Source: an uncultured Phycisphaerales bacterium (lineage in GTDB: Bacteria; Planctomycetota; Phycisphaerae; Phycisphaerales; UBA1924). Taken from it: a DNA stretch of 64,000 bases. The DNA is taken from positions 124,001-188,000 of the forward strand of contig CALKJW010000005.1 in NCBI GenBank assembly GCA_937995595.1, written 5' to 3'. Positions within the stretch are counted from its first letter, which is position 1. Every line of letters begins with the position of its first letter. Positions 9,850 to 21,297 of this stretch are shown here, in pieces. The position numbers and the translations under genes were made by a program. Below the pieces are notes generated by a model. It was not told the DNA's origin and made no database searches. It saw nothing but the letters and a program-made list of their open reading frames with translations.

Positions 9850-11127
9850 TCAGCAGCCCACAAGGTACGCCGTGATGAACATGAACAGGTCGGCGATCTC
9901 CAGAGTGCCGTTGCCGTCCCAGTCGGCGGTCGGGCTGCCGGCAAAGTACGCGGTGATGAAGCCGAAGATGTCCGCGATGTTCAGGACGCCGTTCCCGTCG
10001 AAGTCGGCGCGGCAGCAGGAGGCGGGGAGGCATGTGGTTCCGACTCCCGCGAACGCACCGCCGGCGGCGGCGCAATCGCCGGCGGTCAGCGTCGAGCACA
10101 CCGAGCCGACGCAGCATGCGCCCGTTTCGGCCGGGGGCGGCGGCGGGGTGATGGAGCCGGCCCGGACGGTGTCGACACCCGAGATCGCGCCCGTGCCCTG
10201 CGTGCCGAACTCGTTGTCCGAGCCGATGCCGGGGTTCGGCGAGCCGGCCTCGATCGCCGTGAACTTGTCGTTCCACAGGCCGAGGCTCGGATCCGCGACC
10301 GAGCCCGTCTGGGCCTCGAAGTGCAGGTAGGTGATCGCCTCAAGGTCCGCGCGACGCAGGCCGGCGGCGACATAGTCCAGGGCCAGTTCGACGATCGTGT
10401 TGTCCGACGGGTTCACACGCTGCCACAGCACGGGGATCTGCCCGTTGAGCAGCAGCCCGTCGGTCTGGATGAACTGCTCGTCGTACCCGTTGAGACCCTG
10501 CTCTTCGAGATGGTTGTCCACCTTGGTGACCGTGAGCCCCGACGGGCCGGGCCGGCCGTGGATGGGACCGCCGCGACCCCCGACGTCCTGGTCGGTGTCG
10601 CGGAAGCCCTCCGTCTTGGCGAGCGTCCACGCGGTGTTGGGGATCGCCGCCGACTCGGGCTGGTCGGCGATCAGGTAGATGCTGTTGCGCCCGTCCGCGT
10701 TGGTGCCGAACCGCACGCCGTAACGGCCCTGCAGGCCCTCGATCGTGTTGACACCGTCCTGCGTCCGCTTGTCACGGCCCACCAGGTCGATCTGCACGTA
10801 CACGAACCGGTCATCGAAGCCGAACCGGGCGAGCTCGATGTCGATGTACGCGAGGTACTCGTTGACCGCGTAGCGGCCGCCGACGGGCTGGAAGCCCTGA
10901 GCGGTCGGGCGTTCGTAGATGTCGTTCTGGTACGAGTCGGCCCCGGGATCGACATCCCAGTACCGGAACTGGCCGAACATGAACGCGTTGTCGCCGGTGA
11001 CCGCGTCCACGAGGGTGGTGCTGTACACGGGCGGGTTGGTCGGCTGGGCGAGCGCGGCGCCCGCAAGCCCGGTCAGCACGGCGCTGGCCGCGATGCTCGA
11101 GACAAGTTTGGATGAACTCATACGCAT
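9850..11127 (-). CDS. Secreted protein with C-terminal GC-type dockerin-like repeats
   Basis: 425 residues. A Sec signal peptide (KLVSSIAASAVLTGLAGAAL, cleavage after ALA) is followed by a beta-rich domain of unknown function (about 26-320), a Pro-rich linker, a Cys-rich section (ETGACCVGSVCSTL... CLPASCC) and a C-terminal pair of calcium-type loops, DFDGNGVLNIADIF and DWDGNGTLEIADLF, ending YLVGC. Proteins with this ending are typical of Phycisphaerales and are annotated as GC-type dockerin domain-anchored; what they bind is unknown. ATG at 11127 has GGAG upstream with good spacing. Diverges from the sigma factor gene; a 7-base-pair inverted repeat lies between them at 11159-11177. Confidence 0.85.
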   Translation of the reverse strand: MRMSSSKLVSSIAASAVLTGLAGAALAQPTNPPVYSTTLVDAVTGDNAFMFGQFRYWDVDPGADSYQNDIYERPTAQGFQPVGGRYAVNEYLAYIDIELARFGFDDRFVYVQIDLVGRDKRTQDGVNTIEGLQGRYGVRFGTNADGRNSIYLIADQPESAAIPNTAWTLAKTEGFRDTDQDVGGRGGPIHGRPGPSGLTVTKVDNHLEEQGLNGYDEQFIQTDGLLLNGQIPVLWQRVNPSDNTIVELALDYVAAGLRRADLEAITYLHFEAQTGSVADPSLGLWNDKFTAIEAGSPNPGIGSDNEFGTQGTGAISGVDTVRAGSITPPPPPAETGACCVGSVCSTLTAGDCAAAGGAFAGVGTTCLPASCCRADFDGNGVLNIADIFGFITAYFAGSPTADWDGNGTLEIADLFMFITAYLVGC

Positions 11128-11277
11128 GGCTGGATCTCCGATCTGAGGATCACTGGATGAAGGCGACGCCCGCCTTCGTCTGACCACTCAGAGCCCGCGT
11201 TGCCTGTCGAAATACGCTCTCCAACGGTTTTGTCGTCGCGCCGTTCTGACGCGTACGAATCGAGGAGGCCGAGAGGG

Positions 11278-11811
11278 GTGTCGAAGCACGCGTCCGATCT
11301 TGTTCAGAGGTGCCTTGCCGGCGACCAGCGCGCGTGGAGCGCGTTGATCGACACCTACGCCGGCGTGGTCTACGCCGTCGCTCGGGCGCACCGGCTGGAC
11401 GAGGCGACCGCCGACGATGTCGCGCAGACGGTGTTCGCCAGACTCGCTCGATCTCTCCCCACGCTCGAGAAGCCGCAGGCCCTTGCCGGCTGGCTCGCCA
11501 CCACCGCGCGGCGCGAATGCTGGCGCCTGCTTCGAATCGATCAGCGTGACCGAAAGGCCGTTCGGCACGCGCCGACGGAGGCGGAACTGGATGACGCCAT
11601 GCGGTCGATCGAGTCCGCCGCTCGAGTGCGCGAGGCCCTCGTCGAACTGGGGGGCCGATGCCAGGAGTTGCTCACCGCCCTGTTCCTCTCTGCCAGCCCG
11701 CCGGACTACGAGGCGATCTCAAGGAGCCTCGGTCTGCCGGTCGGCAGTGTCGGACCGACTCGCGCGCGGTGTCTCGCCAAACTCGCGCGGATTCTCAAGG
11801 AGGATTCCTGA
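11278..11811 (+). CDS. ECF-type RNA polymerase sigma factor
   Basis: 177 residues with the sigma-70 region 2 (YAGVVYAVARAHRLDEATAD, DDVAQTVFARLARSL, GWLATTARRECWRLLR) and a region 4 (YEAISRSLGLPVGSVGPTRA), as in group 4 sigma factors. Start GTG at 11278 behind GAGGAGG and AGAGGGG. First gene of a four-gene same-strand unit: an anti-sigma-like protein (78 bases on), a TPR-CHAT protease (55 bases further) and a subtilase (overlapping by 4). It probably drives this unit and perhaps other genes. A TACGCT box at 11212-11217 is a weak promoter candidate. Confidence 0.9.
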   Translation: MSKHASDLVQRCLAGDQRAWSALIDTYAGVVYAVARAHRLDEATADDVAQTVFARLARSLPTLEKPQALAGWLATTARRECWRLLRIDQRDRKAVRHAPTEAELDDAMRSIESAARVREALVELGGRCQELLTALFLSASPPDYEAISRSLGLPVGSVGPTRARCLAKLARILKEDS

Positions 11812-11889
11812 CCCCGAACCCGAAGGGGTGTCATACTCAAACTCGAAGAGAACTGTATCTGAACGCCACTTCCAGACTCCAGAGAGCGC

Positions 11890-12543
11890 ATGAGCACGCC
11901 GAGCCCCATCTCCGATGAAGACCTGTTCGCCTACGCCTTGGGCGAAGGCACGCCGGAGCATCGCGGCCAGATTGAGCGCGCCGTCCGCGAATCCGCCGAG
12001 GTGCGTGCACGCCTGCAGGGGTGCACAGACGTGATCACGCAGATCCGCGCGGCGGGTGCGTTGGTTCCGGCGTTCGCGTTGTCGCGTGATCAGGCGATGG
12101 CGCTCCGTCGGCTCGCGCCGCTCATGCCGACCGCGGCCCCCGAGCCTGTCGGGGGCGTGATCGACGCGATCTCGCGGGTTGCCCGGCTGGTGTACGACAG
12201 TTGGGCCACCCCGGCCGTTGCCGGCTTGCGTGGCGTCGCAGCGGATCGTCTGCTCCGATTCGAGTTCCCCGGCGGCGAAGTGGACGTCCGCGTTGCGCCC
12301 GACTTGGAATCGCCGGGCAGGTTCTGGATCACCGGAGAGGCCGGAAACCTCGGACCGGGAGAAGTGCTGGCTCGCCCGGCATCGGGCACCGGATCACCGG
12401 CGGCGGCCTCGGCGCCGATGGCCGACTCCGGGTACTTCGAGATGTGCATCGACTCGGGCGTCTACACCCTCGAGTTGTCCGTGCCGACCGGTCGCATCGT
12501 CGTGGGGCCGATCGAGATCGAACGCCGGGACCGAGGCTCGTGA
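11890..12543 (+). CDS. Putative anti-sigma-like protein
   Basis: 217 residues. The N-terminus (ISDEDLFAYALGEGTPEHRG, then helical EVRARLQGC) resembles the sigma-binding helices of anti-sigma factors, but there is no HxxxCxxC zinc motif and no clear membrane segment. The C-terminal half is beta-rich (FEFPGGEVDVRVAPD, GRFWITGEAGNLG, SGVYTLELSVPTGRIVVGPI), like a carbohydrate-binding or FN3-type sandwich. Its position right after the sigma gene is the main reason for the proposed role. Some planctomycete operons have a similar beta-domain protein before a CHAT gene, but that is from general memory, not checked. Confidence 0.55.
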   Translation: MSTPSPISDEDLFAYALGEGTPEHRGQIERAVRESAEVRARLQGCTDVITQIRAAGALVPAFALSRDQAMALRRLAPLMPTAAPEPVGGVIDAISRVARLVYDSWATPAVAGLRGVAADRLLRFEFPGGEVDVRVAPDLESPGRFWITGEAGNLGPGEVLARPASGTGSPAAASAPMADSGYFEMCIDSGVYTLELSVPTGRIVVGPIEIERRDRGS

Positions 12544-12598
12544 GCCGTTCGCAGAGGAGCGCGAGGGTGCCCGAACGTACCCAGCATTCCGGCCGGGC

Positions 12599-15358
12599 AT
12601 GGATCGTTGCGCCGACCCCGTCGACGAACTACGACCCGGCTTTCTCGCCGAGTCTGACCGGATCAAGTCCCTCGCGGTTCACGACGTGCGAGCGGCCATC
12701 GCCGCGGCGGACCGGCTCGTCGAATCGGCGCGGACGCATCGAGAGCGCGTCCGCGCGCTGTCGGCATGCGCGCACGCGAGGGCCTGTGCGAACGAGTTCG
12801 TGGCGGCTTCGGCCGACCTGCACGAGGCGACCGCGGTCGCGGAGACCCACGCCCTCAGCGACGAGATCGGCCCGCTGTTGCTCGTGCAGGTCCAGCCGCT
12901 CGCGCGCGCCGGGAGGCTCGAACAGGCCGAACAAGCCGCCGAACGGGCCTGCCGCGAGTTCGCGGCGTCGGGACACGACCTCATGCACGGCAAGGCGCTG
13001 GTGAACCTCGGGATCGTGCGCCGCATGCGGGGCGGTGCGGAGGCGGCGCTGCGGTGCTTTGACGAGGCGGCACGGCTTCTGGAGGGCGATGTACTGTCGC
13101 TCGCCGCGGTGCACAGCAACCGCGCGGTCGCGCTTTTGGAGCTGGACCGGTTCGACCCGGCCATGGACGCATTCGTGTCGGCCATGAGCCTCCTGCAGGC
13201 GGCGGACCGGGGTCATGCCGCGGCCATCGTGAAGGGGAACATCGCCGATCTCCTCGCGCGGGCAGGACGCATCGACGATGCCCTCGTGCGTTTCGACGAA
13301 GCCCGGGAGCTGTTCGTCAAGGCTGGCGCGGAGGCCGACCTTGCGCGCCTCGACGCGGAGGAAGCCGAAGCACTCTTTGCGGTCGGCGCCCATCTCAAGT
13401 GCGTCCGCCTGCTGGACGGTTGCCGGGAGGCCCTCCGGCGGAGCGGGCTGGTCCGCGAGTACACCCGCGCAACTCTGGTGTACGGGCTGGCCAGCATGCG
13501 GGCGGGCAACCTTTCCGCGGCGGCAACGGCGCTCGACGAGGCCAAGACGCACGCCGCGTCCATGCGGTCGAGCCTGATTCTCGCCGAAGCAGGCATCGCG
13601 CTCTGCGAACTCGCCGCCGCGAGGGGTGAGATCGAACAGGCCCGTCGGTTCGGCGCCGAGGCCGTGGCTCTGCTGGCGGAACGGCCAGTCCGCAGGGCCG
13701 TGGCCCGCATTGCGATGGCTTCCGTTGAACTCGACGCCGGCCGCACTCGGGACGCACGCGTGCTCCTCGACGCCGCCGACGCCGACCTCGGGGACGCGGG
13801 CGCCGCGCCGCTGAGGGCTCGGGCGCTGCATCTTCGCTCGCGCGTTGCGCGTCAGGAGGGCGACGCCCGTCGCGCCCTCGACCTGGTCTGTGAGGCCATC
13901 GCGGTTGTCGAACGCTTCCGCGGCGAGATCCGGGCCGAGCAGATCCGAACGGCCTACCTCGAATCGACGCAGCGGCTGTTCATGGACGCGTGCGAACTCG
14001 CACGAGTGACGCTCCCGATCGAGAGGCAGGGGGCGGTTGTGTTCGATGCGACCGAGCGGATGCGAAGCCGGACACTTCTTGACTCGCTCGGCAGCGGCGG
14101 TCGGCGACCCTTGGAAGACAGCAATACCGACACGCCGACCACGGTCGAGATGAACGCTCTGTATTCCTCTCTGGGACCGACGAGCGCCGATTCGCCAGAC
14201 GTCCTCGAACGCCGACGCGCACGCCTGCGGGCCTTGGAAGCCCGGCGTGACGCCGCGCAGGACCGCGCGGCGGCGCGTCGATCGATCGATGCGGCGTCGA
14301 TGCTCTTCAGCGAGCCGCTGACGCTCGATGAAGCCATCGGCAGGATACCGGAGGGGGAGGCGGTCGTCTCGTTCTACCCGGATGGGCCGGACGTGCTCGC
14401 CCAAGTGATCCGCGCTGGCCGGCGAGCCGAGATCCGGCGGCTCGCGTCCCGTGCCGAGGTCTCGACGCAGTGCCGGCGCTTCCGCCTGGCGGTTGCACGC
14501 TGCATCGCGGGGATCAACCGCCGCGCAGAGGCCGCGGCCGTGGCCGCCCTCTCCGAGTTGCAGGGCCTGCTGCTCCGCCCGCTCAACGATCACCTTTCCG
14601 TGAGCCTGCACGTCCGGCTCATGCCCTTCGGCGATCTGCACGGAATCCCGCTGCATTGCGCCCCCCGGGCGCATCTTGCCCTCGGCGATGACTCGCCGAC
14701 GGCGGTCGTGTCGTACCTGCCGGGTGTGACGATCGGCGCCGCGCTGGCCGAGATGTCGCGTGCAACCGACGCGTCGTTGTCGGACAGGGTGGTCGTCGTG
14801 GGCTTGGGCGACAGCGTCGCGCCGCACATCGAAGCCGAGGCGCGGGAAGTCGCGTCCTGCCACCGCGGGGCGACTGCCCTGGTCGGCGGACGGGCAACGG
14901 CCGACGCGGTACTCGGGGCGATCCGGGGGGCCGCGCTCGTTCATCTTGCCTGCCACGCCGTCTTTGACGCCGAGTTCCCCATGTCCTCGCGCATCAAACT
15001 CGCTGATCGCTGGGTGACCGCGCGCGAACTGGTCGGTCGGTTCCGCCCGGGGGCTGCCGTCGTGGTCGCCGGCTGCGACACGGGGCGGACCAGCGACATC
15101 GGCGGTGAGGACCGCCTCGGGATCGTGAGGGCGATGCTCGCCTCCGGTGTCGGCGCGGTGCTGGCGGCGGCGTGGCCGCTCCACGACGCCAGCGCAGCAG
15201 GTCTCATGGTCGGCGTCCACCGCGGACTGGCCGAAGATCCGGCCGGCTTTGCGCGCGCGTTGCCGCGGTGTCTGGCGGGCGTCCAGCGTCAGATGCGGGA
15301 TCGTGCCGAGCCCATCGACCGGTGGGCGGGTCTGTATGTTCCCGGAGCGCTCCTATGA
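12599..15358 (+). CDS. TPR-CHAT caspase-like protease
   Basis: 919 residues. About 30-430 is an alpha-helical repeat array of TPR type (GRLEQAEQAAERACREFA, GNLSAAATALDEAKTHA). A spacer with Glu/Arg-rich helix (DVLERRRARLRALEARRDA) leads into a CHAT domain at about 600-919. The catalytic pair of this caspase/separase-like clan is intact: His786 in LVHLACHAVF and Cys826 in VVAGCDTG; the GVGAVLAAAWPLHDASA segment is also typical. No signal peptide, so cytoplasmic. CHAT proteases act in peptide cleavage and, in several bacterial systems, in regulated proteolysis or cell death. ATG at 12599 has only a weak ribosome-binding site; the frame is open upstream into the previous gene. Its stop overlaps the start of the subtilase (ATGA). 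Confidence 0.88.
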   Translation: MDRCADPVDELRPGFLAESDRIKSLAVHDVRAAIAAADRLVESARTHRERVRALSACAHARACANEFVAASADLHEATAVAETHALSDEIGPLLLVQVQPLARAGRLEQAEQAAERACREFAASGHDLMHGKALVNLGIVRRMRGGAEAALRCFDEAARLLEGDVLSLAAVHSNRAVALLELDRFDPAMDAFVSAMSLLQAADRGHAAAIVKGNIADLLARAGRIDDALVRFDEARELFVKAGAEADLARLDAEEAEALFAVGAHLKCVRLLDGCREALRRSGLVREYTRATLVYGLASMRAGNLSAAATALDEAKTHAASMRSSLILAEAGIALCELAAARGEIEQARRFGAEAVALLAERPVRRAVARIAMASVELDAGRTRDARVLLDAADADLGDAGAAPLRARALHLRSRVARQEGDARRALDLVCEAIAVVERFRGEIRAEQIRTAYLESTQRLFMDACELARVTLPIERQGAVVFDATERMRSRTLLDSLGSGGRRPLEDSNTDTPTTVEMNALYSSLGPTSADSPDVLERRRARLRALEARRDAAQDRAAARRSIDAASMLFSEPLTLDEAIGRIPEGEAVVSFYPDGPDVLAQVIRAGRRAEIRRLASRAEVSTQCRRFRLAVARCIAGINRRAEAAAVAALSELQGLLLRPLNDHLSVSLHVRLMPFGDLHGIPLHCAPRAHLALGDDSPTAVVSYLPGVTIGAALAEMSRATDASLSDRVVVVGLGDSVAPHIEAEAREVASCHRGATALVGGRATADAVLGAIRGAALVHLACHAVFDAEFPMSSRIKLADRWVTARELVGRFRPGAAVVVAGCDTGRTSDIGGEDRLGIVRAMLASGVGAVLAAAWPLHDASAAGLMVGVHRGLAEDPAGFARALPRCLAGVQRQMRDRAEPIDRWAGLYVPGALL

Positions 15359-16746
15359 GCAGTCGCAGTCATCCAACACTTCCGTCTCTGTTCCTGGCAT
15401 TGCTGGTCCTGGCGCTGCACTGGCTCGCGCCCGCCGCTCGTGCCGACGATCCCGCGTTTGTCCCGCGGCAGGCGCTGGTTCGACTCGCACCCGGGGCGTC
15501 GATCAACGACCTGACGGTCGAGTACGGCGTCCAGACCCTTGTCAGCCTCGGGTCTAGGAACATCCACCTGCTGCAACTCCCGGAGAACCCGGACGAGCAG
15601 ACGTTTGTGGACCTGTTCGCGGCCGATCCGCGGGTGATCTACGCCGATCTCAACTTCTACGCCGAGGACACGGACGCGGACGGTACGACCCAGGACATCT
15701 TTCTCGCCCGGACGTTCCAGCAGTATCTTGCAGACCCGACGTTCGTGATCGTGCGGTCGGCCGCCGCCCACGCCGTCTCGCGCGGCGAAGGTGTGACGCT
15801 CGCCGTCATCGACTCGGGTATCGACTGGACGCACCCCGCGTTCGCGGGCCGAGTCGCGCCGGGTGGATACAACTTCATCGAGAACAACACCGATGTCAGC
15901 GACGGGGGTGTCGGCCTGTTCGCCGGGCACGGAACCGCGGTGTCGGGAATCGTGCTCCGGGTGGCGCCCGATTCCCGAGTGCTGCCGCTGCGGGTGATGG
16001 ACAGTGACGGTTCGACGACAACGTTCAGGCTTGCGCAGGCGATCTTCCACGCTGTCGATCAGGGCGCCAGAGTCATCAACATCAGCCTGGGCACGCTCGC
16101 CGACCCGTTCCTGCTCCGGGACGCGGTGAGCGAGGCCGTCTCGGCGGGGGTGGTCATCGTCGCCGCGGCAGGCAATGACGACGCCGAATCACCGCCGCGC
16201 AGCCCCGCGGGCCTGAGCGACCTCGGTGTCATCGCCGTGACAGCAACCGATGCGCAGTTGGTGAAGGCCCCGTTCAGCAACTTCGGGACGTGGGTGTCCG
16301 TCGCCGCGCCGGGCGTGTCCGTGCACGGGCCCTTCCTCGGAGGCGGGTACGCCGAAGCGACAGGTACGAGTTTCGCTGCGCCGCTGGTTTCCGGAACCGT
16401 GGCGCTCGCGTTCTCGGCGTGTCCGAACGCCGCCGCGTCCGACGTTCGGGCCGCGGTGCTGTCCGCCGCGCTCCCGATCGACGCGGAGAACCCCAGTTAC
16501 ACCGGGATGCTCGGCAGCGGGCTGCTCGACTGTGCGGCAACGGTTGCGTTGGCCGCTCAGTTGCCGACCTGCCACGCCTGCCCCGCGGACTTTGACGGCT
16601 CCGGCGAACTCACGGTTGCGGACGTCTTCGCCTTTCTCGGGTCGTGGTTCTCCGGCGATCCGAGGGCCGACGCGAATGGCGACGGTCTTCTGAACGTCTC
16701 GGACGTGTTCGCGTTCCTCTCGGCGTGGTTCGCGGGTTGCGCGTGA
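15355..16746 (+). CDS. Secreted subtilisin-like serine protease with dockerin-type C-terminus
   Basis: 463 residues, family S8. A Sec signal peptide (FLALLVLALHWLAPAARA, cut near residue 28) precedes an inhibitor-like pro-region (FVPRQALVRLAPGASINDL). The catalytic triad is complete: Asp153 in AVIDSGIDWTHP, His192 in GHGTAVSG, Ser339 in GTSFAAP; the oxyanion Asn is in AAAGNDDAES. After a CHACPADF junction come two dockerin-like loops (DFDGSGELTVADVF; DANGDGLLNVSDVF) ending WFAGCA. The start ATG overlaps the CHAT stop by 4 bases, so the two proteases are translationally coupled, one kept inside and one exported. Converges with the next gene, only 5 bases between stops. Confidence 0.92.
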   Translation: MSSRSHPTLPSLFLALLVLALHWLAPAARADDPAFVPRQALVRLAPGASINDLTVEYGVQTLVSLGSRNIHLLQLPENPDEQTFVDLFAADPRVIYADLNFYAEDTDADGTTQDIFLARTFQQYLADPTFVIVRSAAAHAVSRGEGVTLAVIDSGIDWTHPAFAGRVAPGGYNFIENNTDVSDGGVGLFAGHGTAVSGIVLRVAPDSRVLPLRVMDSDGSTTTFRLAQAIFHAVDQGARVINISLGTLADPFLLRDAVSEAVSAGVVIVAAAGNDDAESPPRSPAGLSDLGVIAVTATDAQLVKAPFSNFGTWVSVAAPGVSVHGPFLGGGYAEATGTSFAAPLVSGTVALAFSACPNAAASDVRAAVLSAALPIDAENPSYTGMLGSGLLDCAATVALAAQLPTCHACPADFDGSGELTVADVFAFLGSWFSGDPRADANGDGLLNVSDVFAFLSAWFAGCA

Positions 16747-16751
16747 GCAGG

Positions 16752-18263
16752 TTACGGAGGGCAGCCCACAAACCAGACGCTCAGGAACGCGAACAGATCG
16801 TTCGGGGTCGTGAACCCGTCGCCGTCGAAGTCCGCCGCGCCGGCGAACCACGCGTTCAGGAATGAGAAGATGTCCAGCGTGTTGTGCTGCCCGTCGCGGT
16901 TCCAGTCGGCCGGGCACTCGGCGATCGATTCAAGGAGCAGTTCGAGATCCTCTTCGTCGATGTACCCGTCGGCGTTGAGGTCGTAGAAACTCCACGAGCC
17001 TCCGAGCCCCACCTGCACGCGCCCGTTCACAACACCGTCGAGATCGCGCGGCCCGCCGTCGTTGGAATCGATGATGCCCTCGAGCAGCGCGTAGTCGGCC
17101 GGGCCGGCTTCGCCGTCGGCGTCGCAGTCGCCGAACGTGTCCTCGAACCCCGTGTCGGTCCACACGTAGAGCGCGGCACCGTCGGCGCACGTCGTGCCGA
17201 ACAGCGCGGTCACGCGCCAGCGGGTGGGGTCGAGCAGCTGCTCGTCGGTGTGGGACTGGTCGGCCCACTGGCTCGTCAGCGTGTGCACCGGCCCGGTCAG
17301 TGCGCCCCCGTTCCCGCCCTGGGCACCGATGATCAGGTCACGCAGGCCCTCGGCGACGCTCGCGTGGTTGCCCGGGCCGATTGACTGGTCGTACGGCTGC
17401 GCGGCCTGCCCGGTCAGTGCGGCCGCGCCCGCGGCGTTGAGCGCCCAGACCAGCGAGATCGTGGTGCGGTTGGTCTGCGTGTCGTGCGAGAAACGCAGGT
17501 TGACCAGCGGGTCGTACAGCCCCGGCGCGGACCCGCCGAACATCCCGCTCGCGCCCTGGTAACCCCCGCTGCGCTTGAAGAACCGGCTCCGGACGGTCCA
17601 CGTCTCGCCGGCTTCGAAGACACCGTTGCCGTTGCCGCCCTCGCTCACGACCGTGACAGTGTTGCAGCCGCAGAGCGTCAGGGCCCAGTCGGCGCCGCTG
17701 CGTTCGATCTGCGGGGCGGTCGCGAAGTCCAGATCGACTTCGTCACTCCACCGCGCGACACGAAGGCTGATCGAACCCTCGGGCATGCGGCCGAACCGTC
17801 CGACGTTGGCAAGGTAGCGCGAGTGCGCGCTGCCGCCGAGTTCGCCGCCGGTGTCGCGGTTTCGGTCCATGTCCAGTTCGAGGAAGCCGTACACGGGCCT
17901 GGGGCCGAACGCGAACGGGTCGAACGCGGTCCCGCCGACACCCAGCGTTCCCGGCGGGTTGACCACCCCGTCGAAGGTCACGTCGAGCCGGAACAGGTTC
18001 GCCCCGCGGCCCTGTCGCGGCGTGCCGTTGTAGGGGTTGGTCACGGGCGTCGGTGTCTCCCAACCCATGAGCCGCGCTTCGAGCAGGTCGGGGATCGCGG
18101 CGTTCGCGTCGAGCGGGCAGTTGCTCTGGGCGTCGGTGCGGCGGATGGCCGCGTCGCCGGCGGGGTCGCTGTAGACGGCGACGGAGTCCGAGGCCAGCGT
18201 GCGCGCCGCGGCGACGAGCGCCGCCGCGACCGCACAACCGGGATGGAGCCGCGTCCGGTTCAT
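16752..18263 (-). CDS. Secreted protein with calcium-loop (dockerin-like) repeats, cassette copy 1
   Basis: 503 residues, fourth gene of the first cassette. A signal-like N-terminus (MNRTRLHPGCAVAAALVAAA) precedes a large domain with conserved blocks SDPAGDAAIRRTDA, GRPVYGFLELDMDRNRDTGG, WALTLCGCNTVTVVSEGGN and YDPLVNLRFSHD. Four EF-hand-like loops follow: DCDADGEAGPAD, DLNADGYIDEED, DWNRDGQHNTLD and DFDGDGFTTPND, ending FVGCPP. The protein at 22.3-23.8 kb is a clear paralogue, block for block. The function of the large domain is unknown. Its ATG overlaps the stop of the NtrC-type regulator gene by 4 bases, so expression is coupled to the regulator. Confidence 0.85.
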   Translation of the reverse strand: MNRTRLHPGCAVAAALVAAARTLASDSVAVYSDPAGDAAIRRTDAQSNCPLDANAAIPDLLEARLMGWETPTPVTNPYNGTPRQGRGANLFRLDVTFDGVVNPPGTLGVGGTAFDPFAFGPRPVYGFLELDMDRNRDTGGELGGSAHSRYLANVGRFGRMPEGSISLRVARWSDEVDLDFATAPQIERSGADWALTLCGCNTVTVVSEGGNGNGVFEAGETWTVRSRFFKRSGGYQGASGMFGGSAPGLYDPLVNLRFSHDTQTNRTTISLVWALNAAGAAALTGQAAQPYDQSIGPGNHASVAEGLRDLIIGAQGGNGGALTGPVHTLTSQWADQSHTDEQLLDPTRWRVTALFGTTCADGAALYVWTDTGFEDTFGDCDADGEAGPADYALLEGIIDSNDGGPRDLDGVVNGRVQVGLGGSWSFYDLNADGYIDEEDLELLLESIAECPADWNRDGQHNTLDIFSFLNAWFAGAADFDGDGFTTPNDLFAFLSVWFVGCPP

Positions 18264-19750
18264 CGCTGCGCCGTCTCCTTCACAAACTCGGCAAGGCCGA
18301 ACTGCTCGACGCGGTAGCGCATCCCGGCGCGGGTCAGGCCGATCAGCCGAGCCGCGCGCGAGACGTTGCCGTGCGACTTGCGCAGGGCCTCCATGACCAG
18401 TTCACGCTCGAGGTCCTCGGCCTTGGGCAGTTCGCCGGTGACCAGCCGCGCCAGCGAGGGTACCTCCGCCGCGATCTCGTCGCGCGAGAGTTCGGGCGCC
18501 AGACCCAGGTCCTCGGCGTCCACCGTGTCGCCGTCGAACAGCATCGATACCCGCTGCATGGCGTTGACGAGTTCGCGCACGTTGCCGGGCCAGCGGCACG
18601 CCGCGATCGCGGCGCGGGCGCATTCCGACAGGCGCGGGGCCTCGCGCCCGTACCGTCGCGCGAAGTTCGCAAGCGCCGACTCGGCGATCAGCACCGCGTC
18701 GCCCGCGCGCTCGCGCAGCGGCGGGATGGTGATCGTGAACGCGTTGAGCCGGTACAGCAGGTCGCGCCGGAAACGGCCGTCGGCGGCGCGCTGCGCGAGG
18801 TCCTGGTTCGACGCGGCGATCACGCGTGCACGCACGCGCTTGTCCCGCGCTCCGCCGATCCGCCGGTACCGGCCCTGCTCGACCACGACCAGCAGTTTGG
18901 TCTGCAGTTCCGGCGGCATCTCGCTGATCTCGTCGAGAAAGATCGTGCCGCCCTCGGCCATCTCGAAAAGGCCCGGCCGTGTCTCGCGCGCGTCGGTGAA
19001 CGCGCCCCGCTCGTGCCCGAACAACTCCGACTCCACCAGCGTTGCCGGCAGCGCCGAGCAGTTCACGTGCACGAACGGCGGGTGGTCGTTCGGATCGGCG
19101 CTCCCGTTGCGACGGGCCTTCTCCGCCGCGACCGCGCGCTGGTGCAGGTACCGGGCCAGCACACCCTTGCCGACGCCGGTCTCGCCCAGCAGCAGCACGG
19201 TGGGAAGGGCGGTGCCGGATTCCTCCGACGCGCCGTCGTCCGGCAGCGGCATCGTGGCAAGGCGGTCCGCGAGTCGGAGGCACTCGGTCCACGCGGGGCT
19301 GGTTCCCACGATGGACCTGCCGTCGTCGCGGCTTTGTTCCAGGCGCTCGTACAGCCTCAGACGCCGCGCGACCTTGCGCTGCTGCAGCCACTTCTCCGTC
19401 TGCAGCGGCAGTTCCTCCATCTTGAGCGGCTTTTGCAGGAAGTCGTCCGCGCCCTGCTTCATCGCGGCCACAGCCGTCTCGATGGTGCCGAAGGCGGTCA
19501 CGACCACGGCCGTTCCCTCGTACCCCTCGGCCCGTACACGCTGCACAAACTCGATGCCGTTGCCGTCCGGGAGATTGGCGTCCGTGATGATCAGGTCGAA
19601 CTCGCTGGCGGCCATCGCATCCGCGGCCTCGCCGATCGTCGCGCACTCCGTCACCGTGTGCGAAACCGAGGGACGCGTGCCGCGGCGGAGCATCTTCGCC
19701 ATGGGAATCCGCAGGGCGGTTTCATCCTCGATGAGCAGAATCCGTGCCAA
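18260..19750 (-). CDS. NtrC-family sigma-54 activator-type response regulator, cassette copy 1
   Basis: 496 residues. Receiver domain 1-120 with phospho-acceptor Asp57 (DLIITDANLP), acidic pair EDE and Lys in LQKPL. AAA+ domain about 160-400 with Walker A GETGVGKG and Walker B GTIFLDEI. The sigma-54 contact loop, usually GAFTGA, reads GAFTDA. A Fis-type helix-turn-helix closes the protein (GNVSRAARLIGLTRAGMRYR). Start codon is TTG at 19750 with GGAGG 8 bases before it. Presumed partner is the kinase 35 bases upstream. The GAFTDA form leaves it open whether it really works with sigma-54. Confidence 0.92.
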   Translation of the reverse strand: MARILLIEDETALRIPMAKMLRRGTRPSVSHTVTECATIGEAADAMAASEFDLIITDANLPDGNGIEFVQRVRAEGYEGTAVVVTAFGTIETAVAAMKQGADDFLQKPLKMEELPLQTEKWLQQRKVARRLRLYERLEQSRDDGRSIVGTSPAWTECLRLADRLATMPLPDDGASEESGTALPTVLLLGETGVGKGVLARYLHQRAVAAEKARRNGSADPNDHPPFVHVNCSALPATLVESELFGHERGAFTDARETRPGLFEMAEGGTIFLDEISEMPPELQTKLLVVVEQGRYRRIGGARDKRVRARVIAASNQDLAQRAADGRFRRDLLYRLNAFTITIPPLRERAGDAVLIAESALANFARRYGREAPRLSECARAAIAACRWPGNVRELVNAMQRVSMLFDGDTVDAEDLGLAPELSRDEIAAEVPSLARLVTGELPKAEDLERELVMEALRKSHGNVSRAARLIGLTRAGMRYRVEQFGLAEFVKETAQR

Positions 19751-19785
19751 TCAGAAGACCTCCGTATCCGGTTTGTGGGCCATTC

Positions 19786-21297
19786 CTAGCCGCCATGGTG
19801 GTCGTTTTCAGCCACCAGTTTCGTGCCAGTCTGTGCGGGCGAAACCGGAAGTCGGATCCGAAAAACCGCACCGTGGGACTCGGAGCCGTTCTTAGATGCC
19901 TCATCAAGGGTTATAAGCCCGCCGTGTGCCTTGACAATCTGTTGAGCGATTGCAAGGCCGATGCCAGTTCCGTGCGCCTTGGTCGTGAAGTGGGGCTCAA
20001 AGATCCGTTCACGCAACTCGGCGGGCACCCCCGGGCCCTCGTCTTCGATTCGAACCTCGAACCGGCGTTCGGGGGCCGCACCGGCGATGACGACACGGAC
20101 AGCGGAGCCACCGGGGGCGGCGTCGATGGCATTGGCCAGCACCGCCGCGAGCGCGTGGTCCAAGTGCCGAGCATCGATCTCCACCGACTCTGGAGCCCGC
20201 TCGGCGCTGATCTCGATGCTCACGCCCTTGGATCGGGCGGCCGGAAGGTGGGTCTGCACGACGCCCTGCACCCACGCCGACAGCGGCACCGGGCGCGGGC
20301 GCAGTTCGAGCGGACGGGTGGACTCGAGCAGGTCGTTGAGCCACTTCTCGAACGAATCCACGGTGTTGACGATCAGGGTCAGGTTCTCGCGGCCCTCGGT
20401 CCCGGCGGGCATGTCCAGGCGCGTGACCTCGGCCAGACCGCGGATGCCCGCCAGCGGGTTGCGGACGTTGTGCACGATTCGCCGCACCATCTGCCCGACC
20501 GCCGCGAGGCGCTCTCGTTCCACGGCCTCTCGCTGCAGGCGGTCCACCATGCCCGCCATGTGGTTGACCTCGCCCATGAGTCTCGACATCTCGTCGGCCC
20601 CCTCGGGCGCGAGGCGGTACGTGAAGTCGCCGGAAGCGATCCGCGCCGCCGCTTCCCGCAACTGCCCGACGGGACGCTGCACCCACCGCCGCAGGAAAAT
20701 GACCGCCAGCGTGCCCGCCAGCGCCGACGCGAGAAACACCGACCCCAGCCACCATGCCAGCGTCGAGCGGACCTGGTCGGAATACTCCAGCGCCCGGCCG
20801 GCGTCGTCGATGATCCGCGCCTCGGTGTTCTCGATGAGTTCGCGCAGGTCCCGGCACTCCCGCAGCGCGGCGAGCCGCGAGCGTTCCTCCCCGCTCGCGG
20901 CCCAGTCGCTCGCATCGACGAGCGCGGCGTTCAGCCGCGAGCGGATCGCGCCCCACGTCGAGAGGCCGATGCGCTGCCGAAGCCGGTCGTCGCGCTCAAG
21001 GTTCGACACGTGCGCCCGTGCACGCTGGGCCGCTTCCGCGATCGCTCGTGCTTCTTCAGCGGTCGGAGCGCGAGCCGCGCCCGACGGCCCGTTGGCGCCG
21101 TGGTCCAGCACCGCGGCGACGTCTCCCACGCGCGCATCGATCCGGCCCAGCTCGCCCAGCGTCTGCGTCACGCTGCGGAACGGCGTGGCAACCTCGGAAT
21201 GCACCAGCCGCAGCGACCACCACGCCGCGGCAACACTGCCCACCACCGCCAGGAGCAGCGTGCCGATCAGCAGCAGGAACTTCAACTGCAGTGACAT
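19786..21297 (-). CDS. Sensor histidine kinase, cassette copy 1
   Basis: 503 residues. Membrane helix at about 6-28, a periplasmic helical region of about 150 residues, a second membrane helix near 183-203, a HAMP linker ([20 protein letters not shown]), then the kinase core: phospho-accepting His276 in [18 protein letters not shown] box [11 protein letters not shown]1 DEGPGVP, and G2 GTGIGLAIA. NtrB/ZraS-like order. Probably senses an envelope signal and phosphorylates the NtrC-type regulator encoded next. ATG at 21297. Its paralogue at 25.2-26.9 kb shares the same architecture including the opening MSLQxKF. Confidence 0.92.

Follow-up and report, generated by a model that had tools for sequence, protein, structure and literature searches.

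The type III-E systems known as Craspases offer the closest described comparison for the locus reported here. In these systems the protease Csx29 cleaves Csx30, an inhibitor that binds the sigma factor CASP-sigma (PMC10028731). Separase, to which CHAT proteases can be compared structurally, recognises an arginine at the P1 position of its substrates through Asp2151, and the counterpart of this residue in a Craspase is Lys670 (PMC9729208). Two other arrangements are also comparable, namely the EACC2-caspase/ECF/DUF1822 systems (PMC8195603) and the classical pairs of an ECF sigma factor with a zinc-finger anti-sigma factor (RseA, MucA and RslA type).

The locus lies in the window (i.e. the whole stretch of 64,000 nucleotides that was analysed, from an uncultured Phycisphaerales bacterium) and consists of four genes: SIG, for an ECF sigma factor; ANTI, for a predicted soluble anti-sigma factor; CHAT, for a TPR-CHAT cysteine protease that is predicted to be cytosolic; and S8, for a subtilase that is predicted to be exported. 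As in Craspase, a TPR-CHAT protein with the same fold and a His-Cys dyad is encoded beside a sigma factor and a putative soluble two-domain inhibitor (PMC10028731, PMC9729208), although cutting of the inhibitor is a feature of the CASP system that would extend to the cassette by analogy. The cassette differs from Craspase in having no Cas7-11 or CRISPR parts and in including an exported subtilase; the TPR region of its CHAT protein is also longer, and residues such as Asp803 and His782 differ in Csx29. It shares with the classical pairs an ECF sigma factor followed by a protein with an anti-sigma-domain-like helical N-terminus, as well as the zinc motif found in ANTI members from a second phylum. 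Unlike the classical anti-sigma factors, however, ANTI has no clear transmembrane segment and carries a C-terminal Ig-like domain, and the cassette encodes an apparently cytosolic CHAT protease in place of membrane proteases of the DegS/RseP type. The caspase systems appear to be set apart by the presence here of a CHAT rather than a caspase domain, a recognisable anti-sigma factor and a subtilase (PMC8195603); neither EACC2 nor DUF1822 was found for the cassette proteins among the matches listed (25 of 28 families, for ANTI members). The likeness to separase extends to a superposable catalytic domain and a helical-repeat N-terminus, but CHAT is bacterial and comes without securin or cohesin. 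We found no description of the four-gene set in the open-access papers searched, and as far as these papers go a CRISPR-free TPR-CHAT/anti-sigma/ECF-sigma cassette with an exported subtilase is undescribed.

Components of the cassette

A re-reading of the window bore out the coordinates, strand and spacing given in the original prediction. All four genes lie on the + strand, with SIG at 11278..11811, ANTI at 11890..12543, CHAT at 12599..15358 and S8 at 15355..16746. Gaps of 78 and 55 bases separate SIG from ANTI and ANTI from CHAT, and CHAT and S8 share an ATGA overlap. Genes for secreted proteins with GC-type dockerins flank the cassette on both sides, on the opposite strand (window 9850-11187 and 16752-18263), and further downstream, also on the other strand, are genes for a response regulator of the NtrC type and for a histidine kinase (window 18260-21297). 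Including the window, 5 loci have a similar kinase close to the cassette.

The SIG protein (177 aa, GTG start) matches the NCBIfam model TIGR02937 (sigma70-ECF) over residues 19-172 with 60.6 bits, against a cut-off of 42.9, and Pfam Sigma70_r2 with 45 bits; the match to the ECF model takes in region 2 and region 4, as expected of an ECF sigma factor. The genome encodes no other member of this family: SIG scores 230 bits in a search of its own genome, where the next sigma factor reaches 65. The unit had been thought to stand under this sigma factor as a dedicated regulator. A shared promoter motif was sought upstream of SIG and none was found: k-mers and dyads did no better than shuffled sequences, and a sigma-70-like scan of the same region was null. 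Control by a dedicated sigma factor, autoregulation and membership of the cassette in the regulon are consequently unsupported.

In a Pfam/NCBIfam search, no Pfam family matches the window's ANTI protein (217 aa) itself. Its AF2 model (pLDDT 85.9) contains four helices (residues 9-78), a flexible linker (approximately 79-94, disordered at 82-90) and an Ig-like beta-sandwich (95-213). The ANTI profile weakly matches the solved anti-sigma domains of MucA, RslA and RseA over the first 88 residues, and members of the family match zf-HC2 (8 of 40 members) and CarboxypepD_reg. One or two copies of the zinc motif HxxxCxxC are present in 15 of the 19 homologues from the second phylum and in none of the 41 from Phycisphaerales. 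Taken as a family, ANTI thus has the N-terminal helical domain, often bearing HxxxCxxC, that characterises anti-sigma domains. The profile matches and the model together indicate that ANTI is probably a soluble anti-sigma factor, in which a predicted helical anti-sigma domain is joined through a flexible linker to an Ig-like domain. In most ECF systems the anti-sigma factor is membrane-bound. Most ANTI members, unlike these, have no hydrophobic stretch suggestive of a membrane span and no clear transmembrane segment, so that the signal should reach ANTI in the cytosol. A fold search with ANTI returned only generic Ig-like matches, with Z under 8 and mostly to the C-terminal domain, and for this reason nothing is concluded from the fold about kinship with Csx30.

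The CHAT protein (919 aa) matches the Pfam CHAT family (PF12770) at 104 bits, where the cut-off is 24, and TPR repeats are also recognised. It consists of a TPR superhelix (approximately residues 7-456), to whose region Rap-type TPR sensors give matches, and a catalytic part (approximately 576-919). For the AF2 model (pLDDT 90.4, pTM 0.88), the best structural match found by VIA-align is Csx29 in the Cas7-11/Csx30 complex (8eey_B; Z 32.5 over 576 residues). Foldseek places Csx29 (1.1e-14) level with human separase, and the separase catalytic domain 5fc2_B superposes on CHAT with a Z of 27.2 and an rmsd of 2.9 over 311 residues. The catalytic residues proposed earlier, His786 and Cys826, are invariant in all 119 sequences, the sets checked including 41 from Phycisphaerales and 35/35 remote homologues; this invariance of the dyad argues that catalysis is under selection. 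The window's CHAT protein has no signal-like N-terminus and, judged from its sequence, looks cytosolic.

The S8 protein (463 aa) has a signal peptide, a prodomain, a catalytic triad and a C-terminal GC-type dockerin, and matches Pfam Peptidase_S8 with 148 bits and NCBIfam dockerin_GC with 54 bits. The proposed triad, Asp153/His192/Ser339, likewise stands: D153, H192 and S339, together with the oxyanion Asn N274, are invariant in 37 Phycisphaerales and 20/20 remote S8 homologues, as befits a subtilase. A signal-like N-terminus is present in 36 of the 37 homologues. The dockerin, which had been singled out as a distinctive feature, proved to be a general tag carried by about 50-76 proteins of this genome and is absent from several S8 homologues; it does not belong to the core of the cassette. 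As a common tag, it was rejected as a special link between the two proteases.

Linkage within and beyond Phycisphaerales

The CHAT protein is present in 58 of the 301 genomes of the order. We took 40 Phycisphaerales loci with flanking sequence, which together with the window make 41, and searched all of their frames with profiles for the four proteins. SIG and ANTI are directly upstream of CHAT in every one (41/41). One locus, L050, was left out of the count for S8 because its contig ends; in the 40 loci whose contig continues, S8 adjoins CHAT in 37, lying directly downstream in 36 and convergently in one (L043), and is absent from three (L051, L052 and L065). The ATGA overlap between CHAT and S8 recurs in 20 of the 36 same-strand loci. 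Since this genome has only 6 S8 genes in 3.1 Mb, an S8 gene would rarely fall beside CHAT by chance: as a rough guide, about 0.4% of genes taken at random would border one, compared with 37 of 40 CHAT genes observed. The original prediction had named, as grounds for giving up the unit, sigma and CHAT genes lying far apart in related genomes, or CHAT and subtilase never occurring together. The opposite was found, and the combination that it called unusual is a recurrent cassette in these bacteria.

A fifth conserved gene was also sought in the flanks of the 40 loci, and none recurs beyond 8 of them. With no other flanking gene above this level, the four genes can be regarded as a cassette placed in varying surroundings. 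A secreted FG-GAP protein was considered as a fifth core gene and rejected, occurring in 8/40 loci at best. In four loci a gene for a secreted FG-GAP-repeat protein lies downstream of S8 on the same strand (L040:11176-12459, L042, L049 and L056), and its product might be a target at the cell surface or a fifth member of the cassette. A scan of named genomes yielded 49 loci with the same genes, mostly labelled Phycisphaerales or Planctomycetota. The protein distances of all four cassette members correlate with one another (r 0.54-0.69). One cassette contig, L109, is filed in a Limnohabitans MAG; it has a gene layout like that of L104, a freshwater contig whose source bacterium is unassigned. 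Mis-binning of L109 is probable.

Searching the whole phylum with ANTI brought up loci from further classes of Planctomycetota, where the four genes again occur together and, in 4 loci, in the order S8-SIG-ANTI-CHAT. A second phylum was reached through L084, a record that labels itself a 'Chloroflexia' MAG, and no Planctomycetota locus met before recurred among the second-phylum records. Most full-length TPR-CHAT homologues in this phylum have SIG and ANTI as neighbours, and S8 is present in 7 of 20 loci. In two of the second-phylum loci the sigma and anti-sigma parts lie within a single open frame upstream of CHAT (L213:6187-7710 and L212:10900-12465), possibly a natural sigma/anti-sigma fusion. 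Because the association survives rearrangement, distance and apparent fusion, there is strong evidence that the four genes form a functional unit and are not adjacent by chance. The core of this unit is SIG-ANTI-CHAT, and S8 is an accessory, since it is absent from some loci and from most of those in the second phylum. Two loci depart from the full core: in L165, SIG and ANTI accompany a CHAT gene shortened to its first part (profile positions 2-182), and in L166 there is a sigma/anti-sigma-like pair but no CHAT, the ANTI protein of this locus having no residue at the Arg114 column discussed below.

Arg114 of ANTI and the relation to type III-E

The most conserved column of ANTI is Arg114 (codon 12229..12231, + strand), which is arginine in 115 of 117 homologues (98%) aligned across two phyla and in all 31 remote-group sequences that have a residue aligned there. 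In the AF2 model it is located in a coil (residues 104-119) between the linker and the beta domain, and the residue after it is usually small. Its conservation and modelled position make it look like a candidate site for cleavage or docking. The separase comparison bears on this choice. The CHAT residue equivalent to Asp2151, residue 867 as counted from a conserved Trp, is mostly Ala or Arg; as the aspartate with which separase reads P1 is not conserved there, the role of Arg114 may lie in docking or structure, and the cut site elsewhere. Other acidic residues are conserved in CHAT, Asp863 (all aligned residues) and Asp803 (95%), and either could be an alternative acidic residue for a P1 arginine.

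No gRAMP or other Cas gene is among the recurrent neighbours of the 40 cassette loci. Genuine type III-E loci do occur in the phylum (L227 and L228, with gRAMP scores of 1302 and 2342 bits). No homology is recognisable between ANTI and the Csx30 of L228 (E 0.69, one column) or between SIG and the sigma factor of L228 (15 columns, probability 1.7%). With neither Cas7-11 nor a CRISPR array, and with SIG and ANTI not homologous to the CASP-sigma and Csx30 of L228, the cassette was rejected as a member of Craspase; by analogy, it would nonetheless work like the Craspase protease arm. The protein in the Csx30 position of L227 (L227:12236-13795) contains a zf-HC2 anti-sigma finger (32.7 bits, above the Pfam cut-off) and two HxxxCxxC motifs, unlike its L228 counterpart. 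The finger can be aligned to the helices at the start of ANTI, a likeness at the level of the zinc finger only. A speculative proposal, to which we give limited credence, is that the CRISPR-free cassettes of Planctomycetota were the stock for the Csx29-Csx30-CASP-sigma arm of type III-E, with cleavage at the near-invariant inter-domain arginine of ANTI.

A proposed mechanism and its alternatives

We consider it reasonably likely that the four genes are a self-contained regulated-proteolysis cassette, in which CHAT cuts ANTI to free the sigma factor, with the exported subtilase as a likely output. In the resting cell, the helical anti-sigma domain at the N-terminus of ANTI would bind SIG. CHAT would use its TPR superhelix to sense a cue from inside the cell (probably a protein or peptide), which would switch on the separase-like His-Cys protease. 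Active CHAT would dock on ANTI at its C-terminal, Ig-like domain and cut the exposed segment between the two domains, for which the loop around the near-invariant Arg114 is the best candidate region, and the freed sigma factor would transcribe its regulon. S8 would be translated together with CHAT and probably act at the cell surface as an effector or remodeller, rather than as a partner of a cytosolic protease. Of the two schemes first put forward, the one in which CHAT cuts the anti-sigma factor and releases the sigma factor is favoured, by analogy with the Csx29-Csx30-CASP-sigma arm (PMC10028731) and because ANTI falls in a real anti-sigma family. If this is correct, the cassettes would represent a family, widespread and independent of CRISPR, whose separase-like protease activates a sigma factor through cleavage of a soluble anti-sigma factor, and the scheme used by the protease arm of type III-E would occur by itself in a phylum that also has Craspases. 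It would also provide a likely substrate for a group of CHAT proteases otherwise known by their domain alone, and the model yields a prediction at a single residue, Arg114 of ANTI.

A role in defence is somewhat unlikely, but has several points in its favour. Here infection would trigger CHAT, and the sigma factor and subtilase would execute a lethal or protective response. Type III-E defence does employ CHAT proteases (PMC10028731), caspase-ECF-DUF1822 conflict systems exist (PMC8195603), and both the patchy distribution (58/301 genomes of the order) and the varying gene contexts of the cassette are what such a system might display. However, no defence gene recurs in the flanks of the 40 loci, PADLOC has no match for CHAT, and no copy of the cassette was found on the viral contigs or plasmids searched. 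An exported S8 would also be ill suited as an effector inside an infected cell.

The comparison with separase leaves room for a mechanism that would release the sigma factor allosterically, with the uncut Ig-like domain of ANTI bound by the TPR region of CHAT and the protease acting elsewhere. Arg114 could then be the docking residue, consistent with the separase S1 aspartate not being conserved at the equivalent CHAT position. The dyad conserved in 119 sequences nevertheless indicates selection for catalysis, and ANTI is the only co-occurring cytosolic partner of CHAT besides the sigma factor, which makes this mechanism distinctly unlikely.

Very unlikely, in our judgement, is an arrangement in which CHAT processes the subtilase or some other substrate while the sigma and anti-sigma factors merely control expression of both proteases. 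The ATGA coupling in 20/36 loci would suit it, as would the observation that CHAT proteases often have their substrate encoded by a neighbouring gene (PMC9729208). Yet S8 is predicted to be exported and CHAT is apparently cytosolic, SIG-ANTI-CHAT is also found with no S8 beside it, both in the second phylum and among a few Phycisphaerales, and the unit has no shared promoter motif upstream. The suggested action of CHAT on pro-subtilase is improbable given the signal peptide in 36/37 S8 homologues, and, as CHAT begins without a signal-like N-terminus, it should not meet mature S8. We infer that S8 is more likely an exported effector or surface-reshaping enzyme during the response. Finally, the idea that four unrelated genes are neighbours through chance or mere history is almost certainly wrong, being refuted by a linkage that holds across the phylum despite changes in gene order and appears again in a second phylum.
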